A DNA stretch of 64,000 nt from Rosellinia necatrix. Its lineage: Eukaryota; Ascomycota; Sordariomycetes; Xylariales; Xylariaceae. Position numbers and translations under genes: made by a program. The stretch's first letter is position 1, and each line of letters opens with the position of its first letter. The notes below the pieces were generated by a model. It searched no databases. It worked only from the letters and a program-made list of their open reading frames with translations, and was not told where the DNA came from. The stretch spans positions 5,456,001-5,520,000 of the forward strand of contig JAGYVD010000003.1 in assembly GCA_021209875.1 (NCBI GenBank). The letters are read 5' to 3'. Shown here one piece after another: positions 21,172 through 51,144 of this stretch.

Positions 21172-23380
21172 ATGAGCCCACTAACGACCGTGGGACTGTT
21201 TTGCAGATACTTTAAAGATCTCCAGGCCACTGCCGCTCGTGAGCGGCGCCAACACACTGATGAGTATCCTGGTATGAGCGAAGATAAACTGTTTGCGGCG
21301 GCCTACCGACGTAAACATTGGGCACCGCAATCGTGTGTTGTCTGTGAAGGAGAGATCGATGCCAACTGTGAGGAGGCTGCTCGAGCATCCTGTGTTGAAA
21401 TCAACTGTGATGAGGGCCAACTGGTATCCAGGTGCCTTCTAGAGCCAAGAAAAAGCCCCAATTCGGACAAAATGCAAGGTCCAGAAATTTTCATCGGGCG
21501 CATGGCATCCAGGGACACGGTGATAAACTCGGGTGAACAGCGTGATCAGCTCGCTAGGTATGTCATGCCCAATCTGTTTGCCCGTTTTGACGGGTGCATT
21601 CCGCCGTCCACCACCGTCACAGCTTTAGCCAAACCCTCTACTTTTTCTCATCGATGGATTGGGCGTATCCCACGGGGATGGCGTTAGAAAGGTTACCAGT
21701 TTCCTTATGGAACTAGGTACTAATGCTGTCAATAATGACGTTGAGCTAAGAATTTGCCTTTTCAGCCGTCATTATCCCCGACTTACCACGGGAAATCATC
21801 TCGTGCTGATTCTGGAGATGAGGCCAGAACACGAAAACGACATTGCCATGTATATAGAAGGAAATCTATACACAGAAGATGGCTCGATTAAAAGCCGAAT
21901 TCAAGAGAAGGCGGCTGGTGTCTTTTGGTAGGTTGTCATCGCTGTTGCCATTCTCAATGCAGCATACGAGGAGGGCAAATCCATGCAGAAGACTCTGGAC
22001 AACGTACCGCCATGTTTGCCAGAAAGTTTTAGAACCATTTTGGGGAAAATCAACTCAGGTCATGCTGAGTTGATCAAAATACTATAGTGGATGCTTCTCA
22101 GCAGGCGGCCACTGACGCCAGAAGAGCTCTTCATTGGAGCTGTCAGCAAATCGCCTTCTCCTTACGAAACTGTCCGGCGGGATATCGCTAGTTCGTCTGA
22201 TGGCCTTATTGATATTCACAGATATGAGAGGGGCGAAGAATATATAGAGTTCACTCATGGGTTGGTCAGAGAATTCTTGCTTCAAAGTTTGAGGTTGGTG
22301 TGTCGATATCTCGATCTAGATCCAGCCGCTGTCGCAAACGGCCATGATAGTTTGTGGGCTTATTGCTGGTCTTATCTGGGACACTTGATTATCCTGTCTG
22401 TCGACAAAAAACGCAAAGGAAAGTTGCTTAGGATGCATCCATTTTTGGAGTATGCAACAGGCCACATTCTGAGCCATGCTGAAGAGGCACTGTCAAATGA
22501 AAAAGCAGGCTCCAGGTTAAAAGGCGACATTGCATTATGGTTAGCGGTACACGGTGACTGGTTGGATGGACTAAAAAGAGTCAGGAAGAGAACCACTGGC
22601 CGATGCAATTCCATCGGACGGGACGATGACGGACTCGTTCACATTTTAATACGTAATGGACACGCAAACTTGACTATGCTTGCCATTGATCAAGGCATCG
22701 AAATTAATGCACAAGTCGGAGTCCTCGGCAATGCACTGCACACCGCCTGCTACTTAGAACGCTATAAAATCGCCGAGTTACTTTTGAACAGAGGAGCTGC
22801 TATTGACGTACAAAACGACCAGGGCGCCACTGCATTACAACTTGCTTCTCTGTCTGGAGACTGCAGGTTGGTCAAATTACTTCTTCGTAAGAGGCGCTGC
22901 AATCGACGCACAAGACAGCATGGAAGTTACTGCATTGCAAGCCGCCTCCGCTGTTAGCCGCTATGAAACAGTTGAGCTACTTATCGAGCATGGGGCCGAT
23001 GTTAACATATAAAGTGGACGCTACGGCACCGCATTGCACGCCGCCTCTTCCTCTGGACATAAATACATAGTGAAGCTACTTCTCGAGAATGGGGCCGATG
23101 TTAATATACAAGGTGGACCCCACGGCACCGCATTACAGGCCGCCTCTAATAATGGCAACTACAAGACAGTAGAGCTACTTATTAAACATGGGGCCAATGT
23201 TGATGCACAAAGTGGACGCCACGGCACTGCATTACGAACTGCCTCCCGCTGCGGAAATAACGAAATAGTAAAGCTGCTGATGAAGCATGGGGGCTGATGT
23301 TAATGTAGAAAGCGGAGATCCCATTACTAGCCCAGTACAAGTCGCTTTATTTGAGAGGCATACGAAAATGTCAGGCCAAT
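21172..23380 (+). pseudogene. NACHT-ankyrin (NLR-like) gene, decayed
   Basis: Pieces in successive frames match the usual order of fungal NACHT-ankyrin proteins. A distal NACHT segment (LCIFSRHYP-like, here ICLFSRHYP, then LVLILE) lies at 21690-21930. A winged-helix-like segment WMLLSRRPLTPEELFIGAV follows at 22088, then a helical linker, then ankyrin repeats from about 22690 (GNALHTACYLERYKIAELLL; GADVNIQGGPHGTALQAAS). In-frame stops occur at 21929 (TAG), 22085 (TAG) and 23010 (TAA). Two frameshifts lie near 22886 and in the G5 run at 23289-23293. At 23010, the next repeat has Gln at the stop position. Intact relatives act in incompatibility or immunity-like sensing. The N-terminal effector domain could not be identified. 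Confidence 0.75.
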
Positions 23381-24690: not shown

Positions 24691-26530
24691 ATAAGGAGCC
24701 GGCCGTTCATTGCGCACCGAAAGATCCTGGCGGCCCATGATTTTGACGTCTGAAAACAAATCTAAAAACGACTATAGCGCAAAGTTGCGCGAGACGGGGA
24801 GGAAAAGCCGAGAAGGTACCGAAAGGTATATGATTCTGGGGGACCTGAGACTTGGAAATACAAGTACTATCGTGCGTTGGTTGGGCTGGATAGAATACGA
24901 AGGGCGCCTTACTGCGAGAAGGGGGCTAGGTAAACCAGGGATGGGGGCGACCAGGCAACATCGCTACGCGCGGCCCCCAATGGTGCCCGTCATATTGGAG
25001 TCTGAGAATCATATACGGCTCCCATCAGGCGGGATATTTGAAGATGATAAAGATTCGGCGCGAGTCGTGGAGCCAACCACAAAGGACCGAGGATGCACGG
25101 GAGACGGAAGCAACTGAGAAAACCTTGATCTTGCGTCCAACGTGCCTCTCTGTGTCTCCCCACGTGTGATCTCGTCCTTGTTTGGCATCTGGGGCGCACG
25201 GGGGTGGCTCGGATCCCATTGCCTAGAGAGGCAGATATGGCCGCCTGCGGGTTCGGTGAGGCTTACTCGCGAAATCGAGACTTTTCTAATACCTACTAGT
25301 AGGCTACTACGCGGTGGAACGTTGACGGTGGTGTTTCTCATTAGGTACCATGCTAAATGCAGCCGATGGGACTATCGCAGATAAAAGACGCTAATCGCCG
25401 ATATGAAGCCGGAGCATGATCTGTGGTGGGCGGAATGGAGGCGTCTCCGTGCTGCCGTGACCACCAAGAGGTCGTGGAGAGGTTGTGTGGCAGTTGTCAC
25501 TTTTCATTCCCTGGTTGCTGCGACAACAAAACACACGCGAAGGGCTAAATAGCTGCTTTATTGAGTTCCAGTTCTGCCCTAGAGAGATTAGATAAGCCCC
25601 CACCATCACACAGGGAGGGGGTTTTGTCTTGGTATTGATTGACCATCATACCTACATGCAGAGACCCCACCCCGTAACTTGTCAATAGATAGATGTTAGT
25701 GATGCAAACAACCTTCTTACAAGAGCTAAGGCATGTGCCTAGATGAAGGGACGGGACTCGGAAGGATAGACACTTCAGGTAGTGCAAGAGGTACTGTACG
25801 CTAGCTATTTCTATTTTTGACGACTTGCCATGCATGTGTGTATTTCCAAGACAGGCGCAGCCTTTTCAGGTTTCTAAGTTAAGTTTTTTTACCAAATGCC
25901 AAGAGCGCGACACACCAGGCTTGGCGCAATTGCCGCTTTTGCTCAGGCTTGGCTCAGCCAGTTTCATGTGCGTGTGCTTATGCATTGTTTTATGCAGGGA
26001 GAAATAGGCCTTGGAACGGTTTTAAGTCTTGAAAACGGTTTTTAGCTTTCAAAACCCGTCCGAACATGTATTTAACCGTCAACTAAATAACAAAGCCTAC
26101 TGGTTGATTGGAACAGCCTACGGGCGCAGATTTTGTTGGTGGTAGTCTTTAAAACCATGTTTTGATAGCAGGTTGTTGCATCTAATGGAAAATTAAGGGT
26201 TTGATTTAGGGCCCAGAGTCACTATCTCCAAATTCACTGAAAAATAGCTCGAAAACTATACCCCCTCCGCTCTTCTTGCCAGGGCCGGATAGAAACCTCA
26301 TCAACAAGGGGATAAGATAGCGCAGGATAAGCCAACATAAGATTTGACGCTTTCATAGTTGAAATCCAGTTGATTAGACTAAGCTACACACTAGTTGTGG
26401 TACCAGTCAACTTTTATAACTTTTGTGGCGCGTCATCATCGCATACATGGTGTTTAGGAACGAGCCATGTCTCTAAAGCATTTTCTTACCATTTTATCTT
26501 TGGAAATACCGCAAGGACAGACTCAAATTT
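24691..26530. other. Intergenic, no gene seen
   Basis: No coding sequence could be supported. The right end contains the 3' flank of the homocitrate synthase gene. Confidence 0.4.
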
Positions 26531-29500
26531 TCATGTAGCCTTTTCCACACTCTCTTCGCTCTGTCCATTTTGACCGCGACTCTTCTGTAGGTCAAGGTGG
26601 AAGGATCGAATTAGGGCATCAGTCTCATCAAGGGTCATCACCTTCAGGTCTGCCATCTGCTTGATCTTGGCCGTACTAGAATGTTGGGGTTGGATCGTTA
26701 GTGATCTAGATGTTAGGATAGGTAGCCGACACTTACACTTGGCGAATTTTGTCCTCTGGCCAGGAATTTGCATCGAGGCCCAACTGGTCAACTCGACTCT
26801 TAATAGCATTCCACCCCGTAAGTCGAGATGTGAAATGGACACTAAGGAGTTGTATCAGTTTCCAGGCTTCATAGTATTGCCTAGGCTATAGCTTACTATC
26901 TGCACAGCTGTGTTAGTTCTGAATATGCGCGAGACAAATAGTACAACTTACCTTGATAGACCGAAATCCTCGGGCTTGAGGATCTCATAGGTGGACGGGG
27001 AATTAAGGATTGCCTTGGCGTGGATACCAGCCTGATACCGTGTTAGTCGGTTTGTTAATCGACGGATTCACATGTGGTATATGGATACCTTGTGTGTGAA
27101 GGCGCAAAACCCTGTGGTTTTCGTAAGCAACACGGCGATGGCTATATATAGAGCAAGTAACATACCAGTAATTGGGTTGTTAAACGGAACGTTGATCTGG
27201 AGACGCTGTTAGCTTGCACGAAAGCAGATGATGAAGCCAGATAAAGTGTGGGCTTACTTCAACAGCTTCTGCGACAAAATCTTCAATAGCCTTGAGCTGG
27301 TGAAGCTTATATTTGGAGAGAATGTAATCCCTGCTGGTCGGCATCATTCTAGCCATCTTGCGTTTCGTAAAGTCAGACCACCGTTGGATTCCAGAAGAGG
27401 AAGATTTGGACATACGAGGGCCCCAAGTGGACAGATGCCATTTCTTTCCCCAATTCCAAGCACAGATGTGTCGACGTCTGTACAGTAGAAAGTCAGCCTA
27501 TGCCCACCCCCGTAGACAAGGTCGGTGGATCCGAAGTCCATCTCCAAGGTCCATATCTCATTAGTAGTTATGAAGAGAGAATCTGGTGGACTTACGTGTA
27601 GCCCCAGCCTCGAGGGCAGTGAAGGAGTTCTAGGAATGGTTAGCTTCTCATCTCCAGGTTTCGGAGCATGTAACGGACCGCCACAGCACAGCCTGTATCA
27701 TCGTGGAACTTGATTCGATTAGCAAAGTGTCATGCAAAACATAGTTTACAGGGGCATATACGTGAACCTCGATATCGGTTGAGACACAGCCTCGAAGGGT
27801 TCTAACAAGGTCCTGCGAATGGTTAGCATATGGCCAAAAAAGTGGATGGCCATCACTTACATAAACTTGTCTCGGAGAAGCACAGCCCACGGTGTCGGCA
27901 ACGCCCACCCTTCCGACGCCCACGTTATTACTTTTGAGAAATCCTCGGTTAGTTTTTGCCGTACGGAGCGTATTTCTAGCGCTAAAGAACGTATTTCAAG
28001 AGCACCCATGCTAGAAACTCTTCATTGGGACGGCGAACCGCTCTTGGGGTAATGCCAAAGGGACACCGATAGCACGGTAAGTACTTACACAGCGCGGTAA
28101 ATGGAGAGCAAATCGACTAGATCCGACCTGTGCATACATTAGCGAAACAGCTGACCTTAGAGTCAGCCGACCCCTCAGAAACCCCGCCGAGCCAGAGGAG
28201 TCAAGCCTTGGATGGAGAAGAGCACGTCGAACAGCGTTGCTTTGCTTTGCTGAAATGGGTAATATAGAAGCCTGATAGGCGATAGGCGCATTTTAAGAGA
28301 GCGTCGCAAAGATGATGGTGCTATGTCGTAACGAGCAACGAGAATCTGCATACAAGACCCTGCTCTTCCCTCTAGGTCTTGCCCGTCATGACTCTCAAAG
28401 GCCATAGTCTCCGCAGGCAACAGAGATCGGTTGATAGGCGAAGGGATCGGCTTAGAAAAACGCAAAGACGGCACGTACCGGAAAGAGTCTTCACTCGAGA
28501 AGCGGACCTCGCAGCCTCGGCTGAGCCATTGTTTAGCTTCCAATTGGGACCAGATTGGTGGTGCACATACCTCTTGATATACTCGATAACCTCGATAGCC
28601 TGCTTGGTAATAGCTACCATGTCCTTGCCGCCAAGGGAATGCTCTCGTAGGAATTCTTGTTGCTGCGAGTCAGTCCACGAACGGGATTATATAGTGGGAT
28701 TATATGGTGGGTCTGTGCTCACGGCTCGTCCCGATCACGACATCTACACCGTCAACCCCGCAGTCGCACTTGGAGGGTTCAGTCATTTGCAATTCATTCT
28801 CAATTCGAAGGGCTCATACCGCAAGCTTGGCGTCCTGGAGGATGTGTTAGCCACATACGAGCATGGATGCACTGGCAGATGGACCGAGGTGAAATAAAGG
28901 CATGCCGAAATCGCTAGCCATCACGGCTGCTCACCTCTAGAGTGCATCTTGTGTCTGATATGTCGGTTAGAAGACCTGGCATAGCTAGGGCCGAGAGGAG
29001 ACAACGAACGGGTTAGAATCTTGGCCTACTGTGTCGTTAGTAGACATTTAATCTCTCTCGAGTATTGGTTATTGAATGTGCACCTTGAGGCCGAGCTTGC
29101 AGATGGCTTCGCAGTCGTCGCGAGATTGCTACCGTTGATTAGCGCTGAGATGCAGCCAATACATACTGTACCGGAAGAGACTCACCGGGCTGGCGGCTGG
29201 ATTCGTAAGTTCAATATAGTCACAACCAAAATCAGAAAGCATCGTCGCGCTATAGACACGGTAATGTCAGCAAGTATAACAAAGCGCTTGAGTTCGCGGC
29301 CTGAACATGCATTTTAATTTTCGTCTCAGTTGAGAAGTACGCATTTGCAAATTGTTCGCCCTCCCTCAAGGCTAAAACATGCGTTCATGATTAACTACTT
29401 TGTTCGACGCTGCATGATAGCGAGGATCATTTCTTACTAGCTAGAAACAGTTAGTTACTGCCGTATTGAGCCTGTTTGTAGAGCCAGAAGACATATTTTA

Positions 29501-29681
29501 GGAAGGCGTATACCCAAACACCCTTGTTGGGCAGCGGCGAATCGCTCCTGGAAGCTGCTGAAAGAGGAATTTAATGGCACGGGAGGTACTTGCATTCTAT
29601 GATCTTGAAGTTGCGGACATTGCTCAAGAGGTCACTAACGCTCGAGTAAGGGTTCGACGTGGAGTTGCCGGTGATGGACAT
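26531..29681 (-). CDS. Homocitrate synthase, 24 exons with two 3-nt micro-exons
   Basis: Homocitrate synthase joins acetyl-CoA and 2-oxoglutarate, the first step of the alpha-aminoadipate route to lysine. Exons: 29681-29594, 29440-29438, 29371-29311, 29249-29186, 29128-29084, 29025-29010, 28954-28935, 28834-28820, 28768-28723, 28655-28571, 28520-28479, 28127-28089, 27930-27861, 27812-27762, 27708-27679, 27629-27596, 27477-27416, 27356-27258, 27196-27166, 27111-27089, 27031-26952, 26899-26897, 26841-26737, 26675-26531. They sum to 1,257 nt, 418 aa, near the usual length. Landmarks: STLREGEQF (30-38), [43 protein letters not shown], metal-site His215 and His217 (HFHDDTGCA), [50 protein letters not shown], then [11 protein letters not shown]. 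No internal stop remains. Two introns need GC donors and one a weak GTCCGT donor. It may be a second, specialised copy rather than the main Lys20/21 enzyme; only part of the genome is visible. Confidence 0.9.
26897..26899 (-). other. 3-nt micro-exon ATA (homocitrate synthase exon 22)
   Basis: Flanked by TGTGCAG and GTAAGC, with CTAAC upstream. AG + ATA + T gives AGA TAT, the Arg-Tyr of LSRYVHF. Skipping it gives LSSVHF, one residue short. The flanking introns are 52 and 55 nt. Confidence 0.75.
29438..29440 (-). other. 3-nt micro-exon CTA (homocitrate synthase exon 2)
   Basis: Flanked by TTTCTAG on the 5' side and GTAAGA on the 3' side, with CTAAC as a branch-site candidate just upstream. With T from exon 1 and CC from exon 3 it makes TCT ACC, the Ser-Thr of the conserved STLREGEQ motif. 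Skipping it leaves the frame open but deletes one conserved residue. Confidence 0.72.
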
Positions 29682-32052
29682 GTTGGGAGCTGGGAGTTGG
29701 GCCGTCCGAACGGCGATCGGGGCGCTGTAAAGTAGGATGAACGGCTTCGTTACGAAATCAGTGTGGCTCTCACGCGAGCAGTATATGAGAGGCTAGATTG
29801 AAGACTTGTTTCGATGAAATAGAGAGGATTAGTCTGACTGTTTAATGTTCGGGAGCAGATGATGGAGGGGTCTGCACTTGTAGAAATGTTAATTTTTTTT
29901 TTTTTGGAGAGTCATCGCTAGTGCTAGCGTCTCCGGCCCGATGGCGGGGGTTCTGTCCAGGAGCTAATGTACGCGACACGGGCACCAGAACTACGAACTA
30001 CTCACGACTGGCTCCACAGCAACAGATGGGAATCAGGAATAACGAGGCATCACATCACAATGCCAAGTGCACGTAATCCAGGCTTTGGTTCTATCCACTC
30101 TCCAGACAGATCATCGACTTCAAAATATACGTCAATCTACTCACTGGTTCTCCTCTCGCTGTCCATACAAGCTTAAGCCCCTGAACAGTGGTTACCTGAA
30201 TCACATTCTATGTCTATTAGTGTAGTGTAGATGTACTTTTAGATGGAAGGCTTTTATTGGGTGCATCATCCTTGTACACGGGGCTTGGCAAACTTGTTGC
30301 CGAGTCAGCCCTAAGGGGACAGTTGGGGAGTCACTGCTCCGGTCCCCGGACACGGGGGAACGTGGTGGTGCAGCGTGGTAGAAAAGCCTGAGCGGCGTAT
30401 TACGGCAGAAATCCTTTAGCCCTACCCCTCCTTTCTGTCTACCTCTACACATGTTAATCTTTTTGTCAGACCGAAGGTTGCAGCGATTGAAAGCGATGTT
30501 GTAGATGGGATGGATCTGGTAATTAACACGGGAGTCCACCGTAGTAGCTAACCACCCGACACTGTGGGTCGTGCCTCCCTCCCCTTACAAGGTCTAATAT
30601 ACGGCTTACCTACTTACGGCCGACTCCTTATCTAATTACGGAGCCCTGATAAGGAATTCGGCTATACGGTTAGTTACATCACGTGTCATATAAGCGATGA
30701 TTGGTTGGCTGTTCGTTACTTTTGTGCTGATTGGTCAATTAGTATCTTCACCTACCATTTTGATTTAGACGCCATGTGCTTTATCTAATTGCTCTAGCTA
30801 GTCGGCGCAGTTAGTATTGGTAGCGTAGGTGGATTAATCGTAGGCTCGGTAGTAGTAGGAAAGAAAGCTTGCGGTTATGTTTAGTATATGCGAGCGACTT
30901 CCTGGGAAGTCGTCGCTTAAACGGACCACTTCAATACTGAAACGACCCATCTTATGATAGGTGACATCATGGATCCGTTTTACAATAACTTGAAACGGTA
31001 TTTGTTTTTGTGCAATTGTATTGTATTGGAAATTATGCAAAGCTTTGTTCATACCGTTACTCATGACGTATTGGGCTATGAAAGAGCGGGTCTACTTGCT
31101 TAGGACAGGTAAGGCTCGGGCTGGCTTAGGCTAAAAGCAGCGTAGCGTGGCTCAGGTTGGCTTCCCTTTCCGATTCGGGATGGTAAAACCTATTTCAGAG
31201 GTTGTCGGTTGGCGTACCACGTGTCACGCCCCATTCCTAGGGATTTAACTAGTGGGCAGTGGTTAGCATACTGCGCGCCATAGCACAAATAAGTTCCGGC
31301 TAGAAGAAGATCTCGAATTGTACAGTTCAAGATGTGGTCGTGATGCTTTGATACAAATTTATTTTATCGTCACGGCTGATCTTCAAAGGAGTATGAACGG
31401 GCTGAAGTGAGATGCGCCCGTTCAGCTATGCCTTCACGCGACACGACATGTGGACCTGGTTGGGTATGTTGGGGGCGCGGATGCCACGGCATATTACCTG
31501 CGGCGGCGCAAACTTAACCATATGTCCGGTAGCACAACAGCTACCTACCTGCTCCTACCTATTCGCGTCTCTCGTACGAAGGCAGGGTTGCGGCGAGGCG
31601 TTCGGAAAGTACTTAATATGTAATTACAAAGCAATCACTAGTCCCCTTCGTATTCTTCATTAACAATCTAGTTACCTGCACCTGTCGTTTACCACCTCTG
31701 TTAGACGTTAACATATCACGTATCAAGGCTGAGCTACCTAATTAGTTAGAACGTCGATCTCGCCATAATTTAGGGAGGTAGGGTGAGATAATGGTGCATG
31801 ACAGGATACGCCTTCCCGGACGCCCGGGGCAATTAGACATGTCTCTATGAGCCCTGCTCCCACCGAATCGGACACAACTTGATGCGCCAGGACCCAACTA
31901 ATATAAATACCGGGCCCGGCAACTCTCATACCTATCTCATTTTTTGGTTCATCATCATCACCCGCTCTATCATCCTTGCCCCATATCCAGCCACGTCTCA
32001 GGCACTTTTGCATATAATAATTATTTATTTATATTTCAACTTCCTCGACAGA
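29682..32052. other. Gene-poor stretch, promoter of homocitrate synthase at left
   Basis: No gene could be supported. A T run lies at about 29891-29904. The right end carries the promoter of the secreted protein gene at 32053. Confidence 0.4.
31901..31909 (+). promoter_or_regulatory. TATA box candidate
   Basis: ATATAAATA lies about 150 bases before the ATG at 32053 and matches a strong TATA consensus. Confidence 0.5.
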
Positions 32053-35523: not shown

Positions 35524-37317
35524 TTAGGAAGACCTGGTAATTGGTTCTTTAGTCGGTAGAACAGCTGTAGCATCTTCTGATTTTATATCCTCTGACCCTG
35601 ATTGAGCCCGCAATGCTACATCGTCACTCTCAGCCTGCTCCTTTTCTGTGACCGTAGCCTCATTCTTAATGTCTCCTCTCATAGAGCCCCAACGAGTACA
35701 TATTGCGCCGACGGACGACGAGGCACTCAAAGCCAACGAGACATATAACGTTAGGAGCAGAGACTTGCTATAGCTCTGTCTTGCCGCGGCCTGCTCATCA
35801 GGCGGGAAGGCGGAGAGGAAATTCCCGGCTCCCGACCCCGCAATGTCGGAGAGATCCGTATCGGGGGAGGTCAGTGAGATACGCCGGCGCAGCTCGCCTT
35901 GGAAGATACTTTGGGCCACCGCGACGAAGATTGATGCACTCAGATTTTGCAGCAAGGTGATCAGAGTCACACCAATCGGTACATCTATGGTGTCGAGCAC
36001 TGTCTGGACAACGTAACTAGGCTGACCAAACCCAAACCCAACTCCGAAACCATATAGGAGCTGGTAGCCGATGATGTGGGCGGTATTAGAACTCAAGTCG
36101 AGGGTTGTGAGCAGAGCGGACCCGGCTATGGCGAGAACAGAACCAATGATCATGCCTGGGTTGTAATAACCGATGGCACTCGTAAGACCGCCAGCGATTA
36201 CCGAACTCACAACGTAACCAGCTATGAGGGGAATGAGCAGAATGCCGGATGATAAAGCCGAATAGCCGCGCAAAGCTTGAAACCAGACCGGAAGATATAG
36301 GACTGCGACATAGACGCCGCCTGTGATGCCGACGGCATAGCCTGCGGCAAACCAGATGTCGCGGTTCTTAGCTACAGCCGGCGGTATTGTGTTCGCTTTG
36401 CCAAGAAACGAGGTTGTCTGCGTGATAAAGAAGACGATTGCCAACACTCCGAACACTACTAGTAGTGCGATGATGCGTCTGTCGTTCCAGGGATAGGTAG
36501 ATCCCCCCCATTGAAGGGCGATCAAGAGGGAAATCAGGGAAGCAACAAGAGACACCGTACCCGGAACGTCGAGCTCGGAGAGTTTTCCGAGGGCCGTTGT
36601 GGATTGGTTGGTAAGGTCGCGTGGGGGTAATTTCACGAGAAAGGCGCATACTACGATTGTCACGGCGCCGAGCGGGAGGTTGATGCCAAAACACCACCTC
36701 CACGTAGCTCGATCTGTCAATGCGCCGCCGAGGAATGGGCCGATGATGGCTGCTAAGCCGAATACGCCCGACATGATTCCAAGATAGCTGGCACGTTGCG
36801 ATAGTGGGATGAGCTTAGTTGTGATCAGTACGCCGCCGGAGAAAATGCCAGCAGCGCCGAGCCCAGCTATGGCCCTCCCGACGATGAGGGCGATAGAGTT
36901 GGGCGCTACTGTGCAAATCAAGGATCCGATCTCGAACAATCCGATTGCCGACAAGTACACAAGTTTGATAGAGAACAAGGAATACAGCTTTCCGTAGAAT
37001 AGCTGGAGGCTACTGAGCGTCAAGAGATACGCATTAGACCACCATGATATATCCGCTAATGCACCGAATTCATCGCTAATGACTGGAGTTGCGGTAGCCA
37101 GGATTGTTTGATCCTAAGATCTAGGTTAGACGTTTCGATCAACGACGCGAAATCCCCGACTCAAAAAGGGGGCAAGCGCTAGGGATAGAGAAAACCGAGA
37201 GCTTTGCCATACCATGCCGGTGAGAAACACAGCCAGACAGAGACCGGTCATAATCAAGGACAGCCGGCGAGCGCCTGGCTGGTTGAGGGACTCGGTAGCC
37301 GTTTGCTGCGACGACAT
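35524..37317 (-). CDS. DHA14-type MFS exporter
   Basis: Two exons (37317-37213 and 37113-35524) give 564 aa in a clean frame. The first helix lies in the short first exon (LSLIMTGLCLAVFLTGM), and the second exon opens with DQTILATATPVI, the family's helix-1 end. Other landmarks are WWSNAYLLTLSSLQLFYGKLY, GLGAAGIFSGGVL, GVFGLAAIIGPFLGGALTD, TWRWCFGINLPLG and YQLLYGFGVGFGFGQP. About 14 helices are expected, followed by an acidic cytosolic tail. It pumps small molecules out of the cell in exchange for protons, and relatives export fungal toxins (GliA, AflT, Tri12 type). It is related to the exporter at 16-18 kb. It is divergently arranged with the GliT-like gene, about 930 bases apart, so the two may share a promoter. 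Confidence 0.9.
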
Positions 37318-49316: not shown

Positions 49317-49325
49317 TATATAAAA
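49317..49325 (+). promoter_or_regulatory. TATA box candidate
   Basis: TATATAAAA lies 107 bases before the ATG at 49432. Confidence 0.5.
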
Positions 49326-49431
49326 CGACAGTAGCGGGCGGCGAGGAATCGTTCCCTCGCCTGGACAGGGTGATCAAGGCCGTCAGCGTTACTGCAAGGC
49401 CAAAAACGGCGAAATAGCCTCACGGTCTATC

Positions 49432-51144
49432 ATGCGACTTCCATATTCCCCGGTGTTGCTCGCGCTACTCGCAATCCAGCCCGGCATCGCGACTAGCCAA
49501 GCCGACAGCCATGGCCGAGCAACGGGACCGCTCCGGGGCGACCTGATCCTCCACAACGGGCGCATCCACACCATGAACGGGCGCGGCGAGATGGCGTCCG
49601 TCATAGCCATCAGGGCCGGCACCATCGTCTACATCGGCGAGAGCCAGGCCGACGCAGCCGCCGAATTCGCAACCATCTCCCCCAGCAGCGTCGTGGACCT
49701 GCGCGGCCGCACGGCGATCCCGGGCCTCATCGACTGCCACAACCACATCGTCCTCCTCGGCAACCGGCCGGGGTACCACACGCCGCTGGAGAGCGCGTAC
49801 TCGGTCGCCGACGTGCAGGGCGCGTACCGCGCGCGTGCGGCGGCGGCCGGGATCCCCTCGGACGCCTTCCTGACGACGATCGGCGGGTTCCACCCGAACC
49901 AGTTCCGCGAGGGCCGGCTGCCGACGCTGGCGGAGCTCGACGCGGCGGCGCCGGGGCACGCGGTGTTCGCATCATACGGCTTTATGGGGCCGGCGGTGAC
50001 GAACAGTCTCGGCAGGGCCTTCTTCGCGTCTCTGGAGGATGCCCCGGCGGTCGGCGCGGACGGCGCCATCGCGGCGGGCCGCGAGAACGGAAAGGCGCTG
50101 CTGGGCCTGAGGGGGCGGCTGCTCACGTTCGCGGCGCGCAAGCGCGGCGTGCGCGACGCGATGCGCTACGCGGCGTCCCTGGGCGTCACCACGCACCTCG
50201 ACCAGGGAGCGTTCCCGGCGACGGGGACGGCGGCCGACGGCGCGGCCCACGAGGACCTGTACGCGATGCACCTGCCGTGGCTGTTCGTGTACGCCGATGA
50301 AGAGAGTGGCGGTGGGGAGGGCCTCGTGCGCCTGCGCATCAACTTCCTGCACATGGACGACGAGGCCGGGGTGCCCACGGTCGCGGCACGGCTGCGTGAC
50401 ACGTTCCCGCTCTTCGGCAACGACATGGTGCGCACGGGCGGAGTCGGCGAGTTCGCCACGGCCGACTACGCCGGGGGCCCCGTCTTCGAGGAGGCGGCGC
50501 GGCGCATCGCCGCGGCTGGCTGGCGTCTCGAGGTACACTCCCTCACGGCGACGGACTTCCAGACGCAGATCCAGGCGTTCGAGCGCGTCAACGCCAACGG
50601 CAACAGTAGCAGCAACCCCGGCGGCGGCGTAGTGGAGGGCCTGCGTTGGGTCGTCGCTCACGTCCCGCAGATCACCCCGGAGTACCTGCGCCGGCTCCGC
50701 GCGATCGGTGGCGGCGTCAACCTGTCCGGCTGGCAGTACCTGGCCGGGGCGGGGCCGCGGGCGGGGCCGCCGTTCCGCGACGTCTTGGGTAGCGGCATAC
50801 CCGCCGGCATCGGCGCCGACGGGATGCAGATCGCGCCGCTGAACCCGTGGGTCCACGCGTACTACGCCACCACGGGTAGGAACGCGCTCGGTCATCTGAT
50901 CAACGACGGCCAACAGATCAGCCGCCGGGAGCTGCTGCACCTGTACACGCGCGCGAACCAGTGGTTCCTCGGCGGCGCGGATGAGGGGCTTCTCGGGTCG
51001 CTAGAGGTCGGCCGCCTAGGGGATGTCGTCGTTTTGAATAATGATTACTTCGCCGTTCCCGATGAGGAGCTTAAGCAACTGCGGTCTATCCTGACGGTTG
51101 TTGGGGGTAAGGTTGTATATGATGATGGGACTCTCGGATCTTAG
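49432..51144 (+). CDS. Secreted amidohydrolase-3 family protein (YtcJ-like)
   Basis: A single exon of 570 aa. Residues 1-20 are a signal peptide (MRLPYSPVLLALLAIQPGIA). The family opening is LILHNGRIHTMN (39-49), followed by the metal-site motif LIDCHNH with His103 and His105. Further family blocks are LEVHSLTATDFQ and GIGADGMQIAPLNPWV, and the C-terminal GRLGDVVVLNNDYFAVP is the usual beta-sandwich end. Members hydrolyse amide or related bonds of small molecules with a metal; substrates are mostly unknown. The gene is strikingly GC-rich compared with its flanks and has no intron, which could reflect codon bias or acquisition from a bacterium. It converges with the sugar porter gene. Confidence 0.9.
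   Translation: MRLPYSPVLLALLAIQPGIATSQADSHGRATGPLRGDLILHNGRIHTMNGRGEMASVIAIRAGTIVYIGESQADAAAEFATISPSSVVDLRGRTAIPGLIDCHNHIVLLGNRPGYHTPLESAYSVADVQGAYRARAAAAGIPSDAFLTTIGGFHPNQFREGRLPTLAELDAAAPGHAVFASYGFMGPAVTNSLGRAFFASLEDAPAVGADGAIAAGRENGKALLGLRGRLLTFAARKRGVRDAMRYAASLGVTTHLDQGAFPATGTAADGAAHEDLYAMHLPWLFVYADEESGGGEGLVRLRINFLHMDDEAGVPTVAARLRDTFPLFGNDMVRTGGVGEFATADYAGGPVFEEAARRIAAAGWRLEVHSLTATDFQTQIQAFERVNANGNSSSNPGGGVVEGLRWVVAHVPQITPEYLRRLRAIGGGVNLSGWQYLAGAGPRAGPPFRDVLGSGIPAGIGADGMQIAPLNPWVHAYYATTGRNALGHLINDGQQISRRELLHLYTRANQWFLGGADEGLLGSLEVGRLGDVVVLNNDYFAVPDEELKQLRSILTVVGGKVVYDDGTLGS

Follow-up and report, generated by a model that had tools for sequence, protein, structure and literature searches.

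The window is a 64,000-nt stretch of Rosellinia necatrix contig JAGYVD010000003.1. A hand-made in-frame model places a homocitrate synthase (HCS) gene on its minus strand at 26531-29681. The gene model has 23 introns, and its coding sequence of 1257 nt is in frame and encodes 418 residues followed by a stop codon. Homocitrate synthase catalyzes the first step of the fungal lysine pathway. The predicted protein scores 474.4 bits against TIGR02146, above the family cut-off of 413.55, and it contains a PF00682 (HMGL-like) domain followed by PF22617 (HCS_D2), which is the domain order expected of the family. The alignment with S. pombe HCS (PDB 3ivs) extends over nearly the full length at 68% identity (266 of 391 aligned residues). 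The two proteins have the same motifs and differ in length at three places, with one extra residue at HSLGGKDM and three extra residues near residue 362 in the protein described here, and one residue fewer near residue 13. These data identify the gene product as homocitrate synthase, as the sequence-only reading of this DNA had proposed, with a predicted enzyme activity. The codon use of HCS is inside the range of seven neighbouring open frames and gives no support to a foreign origin. An Rfam scan of 26000-30500 returned nothing above the gathering score, and no relative was found in the viral contigs that were searched.

The HCS gene is divided into short segments. The intron density is 18 introns per kb of coding sequence, the exons have a median length of 45.5 nt with a maximum of 145 nt, and the median intron is 58 nt. 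Exons of 25 nt or less account for 6 of the 24, namely two of 3 nt and four of 15, 16, 20, and 23 nt. The features of the gene are compiled in Table 1 with the candidate nested intron of a second lysine gene.

Table 1 Features of the HCS gene and the saccharopine reductase candidate.
Feature	Coordinates	Strand	Description	Basis
HCS gene	26531..29681	-	ATG to stop, 24 exons, 418 aa	hand-made in-frame model
Exon 1	29594..29681	-	88 nt, last bases GAA-T	hand model
Intron 1	29441..29593	-	153 nt, GC-AG (donor GCAAGT, 29593-29588), CTAAC branch candidate, relative of intron 12	
Micro-exon 1 (exon 2)	29438..29440	-	CTA, Ser-Thr of ESTLREGEQ	path enumeration + shuffles
Intron 2	29372..29437	-	66 nt, GTAAGA..TTTTAG, TTAAT branch candidate	
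Exon 3	29311..29371	-	61 nt, first bases CC-TTG-AGG-GAG	hand model
Intron 3	29250..29310	-	second GC-AG intron, donor GCATGT (29310-29305)	hand model
Exon 6	29010..29025	-	16 nt	hand model
Exon 7	28935..28954	-	20 nt	hand model
Exon 8	28820..28834	-	15 nt	hand model
Intron 11	28128..28478	-	351 nt, longest intron of the gene	hand model
Intron 12	27931..28088	-	158 nt, full-length relative of intron 1	alignment
Exon 20	27089..27111	-	23 nt	hand model
Exon 21	26952..27031	-	80 nt, last bases TCA-AG	hand model
Intron 21	26900..26951	-	52 nt, GTAAGT..GTGCAG, CTAAC branch candidate	
Micro-exon 2 (exon 22)	26897..26899	-	ATA, Arg-Tyr of LSRYVHF	path enumeration + shuffles
Intron 22	26842..26896	-	55 nt, GTAAGC..CCTTAG, CTGAT branch candidate	
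Exon 23	26737..26841	-	105 nt, first bases T-GTC-CAT	hand model
Exon 24	26531..26675	-	145 nt, longest exon, last bases are the stop codon	hand model
Saccharopine reductase intron 10	L053 locus 1439-1247	-	[D1,2] stwintron candidate	path enumeration

Several introns of the hand model have individual peculiarities. Introns 1 and 3 are both GC-AG introns, a pair that is absent from the sequence-only reading. Intron 9 (28656-28722) has two AGs at its end, CGCAG and AACAAG, with a spacing of 7 nt, and the frame is kept only with the second. Intron 11 is six times the median length and could contain a nested intron, although the protein lacks no residue at that position. Intron 15 (27630-27678) has the unusual donor GTCCGT.

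A micro-exon is defined here as an internal exon under 25 nt. The two smallest, CTA (29440-29438) and ATA (26899-26897), are located exactly where they had first been noticed, and each is bounded by an AG acceptor and a GTAAG donor as described at that time (TTTCTAG/CTA/GTAAGA and GTGCAG/ATA/GTAAGC). The CTAAC branch candidates that were part of the same description are present in the upstream introns 1 and 21, 10 and 13 nt from the intron end, respectively, but not in the downstream introns 2 and 22, where TTAAT and CTGAT are the best candidates. Donors were ranked with a matrix built from the other 21 HCS introns, and the micro-exon donors rank 19 and 12 among the 168 GT hexamers in the gene. 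At site 2, introns 21 and 22 measure 52 and 55 nt and are close to the median HCS intron. The first micro-exon gives the join GAA T/CT A/CC TTG AGG, which reads Glu-Ser-Thr-Leu-Arg, and the second gives TCA AG/A TA/T GTC CAT, which reads Ser-Arg-Tyr-Val-His. The Ser-Thr and Arg-Tyr pairs are aligned to identical residues of S. pombe HCS. Micro-exon 1 is immediately 5' of the codons for Leu-Arg-Glu, and we take the Arg and Glu of this triplet to be catalytic in the S. pombe enzyme.

Path enumeration was used to list the ways of splicing each site. The paths consisted of GT/GC-AG introns of at least 40 nt in single, serial, and nested combinations with at most two introns. Site 1 has 9480 paths (222 single, 2493 serial, and 6765 nested), and ESTLRE is obtained from one of them, the micro-exon path. 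Site 2 has 145 paths (44 single, 31 serial, and 70 nested), and again SRYVH comes from the micro-exon path and no other. A separate enumeration of single and serial paths with introns down to 30 nt gave the same result at both sites. CTA and ATA are the sole enumerated routes to the conserved pairs, which upholds the original proposal that each micro-exon supplies one of them. Both sites have a 3-nt coding block that is flanked by a usable acceptor and donor and is required for the conserved protein. None of the single paths gives a conserved peptide at either site, and the single-intron readings were rejected. The introns could be nested as stwintrons instead of flanking an exon, and splicing of the stwintron type does appear to be needed in the saccharopine reductase gene of the same genome. 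However, 0 of 6765 nested paths at site 1 and 0 of 70 at site 2 give the conserved peptides, and nesting is extremely unlikely in HCS.

The consequence of omitting the micro-exons was examined in the same enumeration and with profile scores. The skip paths keep the frame and contain no stops, and they read ESLRE and SSVH with one residue lost from each motif, in agreement with what had been predicted for a protein lacking these exons. Removal of both codons lowers the TIGR02146 score from 474.4 to 459.2 bits (-15.2), PF00682 from 271.5 to 263.5 bits (-8.0), and HCS_D2 from 119.2 to 112.9 bits (-6.3), and all three scores are still above their cut-offs. These results bear on the explanation that the three bases are intronic, and that single introns of 222 nt and 110 nt are removed to leave each motif one residue short. 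Both skips are in frame and stop-free, and they use the donor and outer acceptors of the micro-exon model. On the other hand, this explanation sacrifices residues common to S. pombe HCS and the 15.2 bits of TIGR02146 that the two codons contribute together, although the score stays above the cut-off. It also makes the 222-nt intron the second longest in the gene and leaves two well-formed internal site pairs unexplained. We consider it very unlikely.

Chance occurrence of the micro-exons was estimated from 5000 shuffles per site, in which the dinucleotides of the introns were preserved and the outer splice ends left in place. An exon of 3 nt that encodes the right residues and precedes a GTAAG donor appeared in 7 of 5000 shuffles at site 1 and in 0 of 5000 at site 2. 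The rates were 6.1% and 0.7% with any GT donor, and 12.7% and 1.9% when either a GT or a GC donor was accepted. Site 1 taken alone is weaker than site 2 because any-GT matches arise in 6.1% of its shuffles, and the dependence of the rates on the donor shows that the quality of the donor counts for more at site 1 than at site 2.

Searches of the 49-Mb genome with the HCS protein and the family model did not reveal a second homocitrate synthase, and the other hits are distant HMGL family members. The PF00682 search omitted the window's own HCS and TIGR02146 caught it only in weak pieces, so an equally fragmented and diverged copy could escape these searches, whereas an ordinary copy with long exons hardly could. 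The finding of one gene bears on two explanations. The first is that both forms are made, and that the enzyme is turned on or off by a regulated choice between including and skipping three bases. Skipping would change a single residue with the frame preserved, and micro-exon 1 directly precedes the residues that we regard as catalytic. The lack of a second HCS among the search results argues against it, and a switch is unlikely, if slightly less so than intronic bases. The second is that this HCS is a degenerate copy or was created by faulty assembly, as its extreme fragmentation relative to the other genes examined might suggest. This explanation has a negligible probability since 24 exons are in frame across 418 residues conserved over the full length, the codon use is that of the neighbourhood, and the gene is the only HCS found. 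Judged from the DNA and the conserved protein, CTA and ATA are very probably genuine exons of 3 nt that are included as a rule, and they belong to the sole HCS gene found in the genome.

Other genes of the lysine pathway were located with family models. The homoaconitase model matches seven pieces on contig C11 and the aminoadipate reductase model matches five pieces on contig C10, and no piece alone is above the curated cut-off. Together the pieces indicate that the lysine pathway looks present. Other matches to the aminoadipate reductase model lie in very long synthetase-like frames, open up to 5048 aa, and the open frames neighbouring HCS are also long (529 aa at 35524-37113 and 606 aa at 49324-51144). 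These long frames make the HCS intron density extreme among the genes examined. Intron-rich genes are known in other fungi; basidiomycete alpha-amylase genes are reported to have a mean of 13.3 introns and up to 22, compared to genome averages of 3.8-5.7 (PMC3584928).

Alignment of the HCS introns identified one related pair. Introns 1 and 12 align end to end with 97 identities in 150 gap-free columns. Their global score is 33 compared to a shuffle mean of -98 and maximum of -41 (2000 shuffles), and their local z is 14.6 compared to 4.0 or less in the other 252 HCS intron pairs. In a second comparison, which also included the saccharopine reductase introns and used simpler shuffles, z is 13.9 for this pair and at most 6.6 in 594 other pairs, three of which have z of 5.4-6.6 arising from short stretches. 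Introns 1 and 12 therefore share the full-length similarity at different positions that is seen in introner-like elements. They contain no inverted repeats and no fold better than shuffles, a second property looked for in such elements. A whole-genome DNA search with either intron finds only the query itself and not even its partner, so this search excludes close copies only. A conserved 13-mer of the pair has 9 hits, both introns included, compared to 7 for the reversed control. A profile of the two introns had 0 hits in 212 kb, or ~0.4% of the genome, made up of 20 stretches of 10 kb and small loci that included short stretches round the seven other 13-mer hits. A further scan of 18 kb, partly overlapping the 212 kb, also detected no copies. 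A genome-wide introner family derived from introns 1 and 12 was rejected because no further copies came from the DNA search for close copies, the 13-mer search, or the profile scans of 212 kb and 18 kb. Intron 1 is thus a member of a related intron pair and is located 3 nt from intron 2. The identity of 65% suggests that the copying is old.

The saccharopine reductase gene (locus L053, C9:2841600-2846600, minus strand) was modelled as a second lysine gene. It has 12 introns in 1338 nt and encodes 445 residues, with the model starting at a codon near the N-terminus. The 445 residues align to PDB 1e5l without gaps at 797.6 bits. Two exons are of 24 and 26 nt, the 24-nt exon directly after intron 10 and the 26-nt exon upstream. 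Intron 10 interrupts Lys-Leu-Val, and AMAKLVG is obtained from 0 of 111 single paths, 0 of 654 serial paths, and 6 of 1257 nested paths. All six split the external donor after its first G, which is the [D1,2] stwintron layout, and they differ by the internal acceptor; CTTCAG preceded by CTAAC is the best by eye. We propose intron 10 as a [D1,2] stwintron candidate. The [D1,2] stwintrons described from Hypoxylaceae and Xylariaceae likewise involve two consecutive splicing reactions at one place (PMC8469720, PMC9024468, PMC12403724). HCS is unlike them in that its introns are in series with three coding bases between. The HCS micro-exons and the saccharopine reductase nested intron together suggest that two genes of the lysine pathway depend on stepwise splicing.

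Fungi whose introns are short are believed to pair their splice sites across the intron. The acceptor and donor at each micro-exon are separated by 3 nt, which leaves little room for the factors of both introns and makes it unlikely that two spliceosomes would serve the adjoining introns simultaneously. Under intron definition, each intron would be recognised singly and the two would be removed in turn. Once one intron was gone, the three bases would be absorbed into a longer exon, and the remaining intron would then be an ordinary one. A similar scheme has been suggested for the 1-nt exon of Arabidopsis APC11, where Guo and Liu consider intron definition together with recursive splicing as a possible mechanism (PMC4674806). 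APC11 differs from HCS in being a plant gene with one micro-exon that was tested with constructs (PMC4674806).

Exons this small are documented but rare, and it is unusual for a single gene to have two. The sequence-only reading had placed them near the limit known for splicing, which does not hold because 1-nt exons are published for APC11 (PMC4674806) and Fusarium CYP621A (PMC12940212). It had also singled out the two micro-exons as remarkable; their presence in one gene is indeed unusual, but the oddity is wider and extends to 23 introns and to four further exons that, with these two, make six of no more than 25 nt. The CYP621A exon has 18 supporting reads and is presented as the first example from a fungal gene (PMC12940212). 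The two cases are alike in that an ultra-small exon is found in a conserved motif of a filamentous ascomycete, and the protein is incomplete without it (PMC12940212). CYP621A differs in having a single nucleotide whose omission breaks the frame, and is backed by 18 reads and 20 orthologues (PMC12940212), whereas the predicted HCS exons are 3 nt, occur twice, and can be omitted with the frame kept. Trichoderma virens Xlr2 also has a micro-exon in a filamentous fungus, and its inclusion is described as glucose-regulated (PMC11121469). In a literature search that covered few of the subscription journals, no publication dealing with micro-exons of homocitrate synthase came up. What this case adds to the ultra-small exons already known is a gene with 23 packed introns and two exons of 3 nt, the related introns 1 and 12, and, in saccharopine reductase, a stwintron candidate.

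The micro-exons may have originated through the acquisition of an additional intron 3 nt away from a pre-existing one. Such a gain is plausible for micro-exon 1 because intron 1 is a diverged relative of intron 12. The introns adjoining micro-exon 2 include no relative of the intron 1/12 type. The introner-like elements of Dothideomycetes resemble the HCS case in comprising related introns at different positions with gains near intron positions, and the reported gains include introns 1, 3, and 8 nt away from sites that carry an intron in other fungi (PMC4457414). HCS differs from them in having one diverged pair, no inverted repeat, no better-than-shuffle fold, and no further copies detected. 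The absence of inverted repeats and of a stable fold also separates introns 1 and 12 from sister stwintrons and introner-like elements (PMC8469720). One possibility, which we put forward tentatively and regard as doubtful, is that new introns settle a few bases from existing donors. An intron landing inside the donor would produce a [D1,2] stwintron, as in saccharopine reductase, and one landing three bases upstream would produce a 3-nt micro-exon, as seen twice in HCS. If this is true, micro-exons and stwintrons are two outcomes of a single intron-gain process that is visible in the genes of one pathway.

Three-base exons are easily missed by gene finders, and an automatically predicted HCS may lack a residue in each of two conserved motifs, or be broken. 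The gene offers a natural test of how intron-definition splicing copes with a spacing of 3 nt between sites, and of whether dense clusters of introns are built up by successive gains beside existing ones. The combination of such features in lysine genes makes them more than a single curiosity.

Two further observations concern the genome and the neighbourhood of HCS. A search for the PF20153 marker had zero hits anywhere, its controls included, and is therefore uninformative. Spermidine synthase (PF01564, on C3 and C4) and saccharopine reductase (PF16653, on C9) are above cut-off on different contigs and are therefore not fused. By this test the genome does not look like that of a basidiomycete, as the survey in PMC10051792 describes the two as fused in each of 48 basidiomycetes, and as separate in each of 27 ascomycetes and also in 5 chytridiomycetes and 2 oomycetes. 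Taken with the very long synthetase-like frames, the separation points to a filamentous ascomycete. In the window, an ankyrin-repeat open frame at 22088-22957, ~3.6 kb from HCS, has a GC3 of 0.47, the lowest of the seven neighbours tested.
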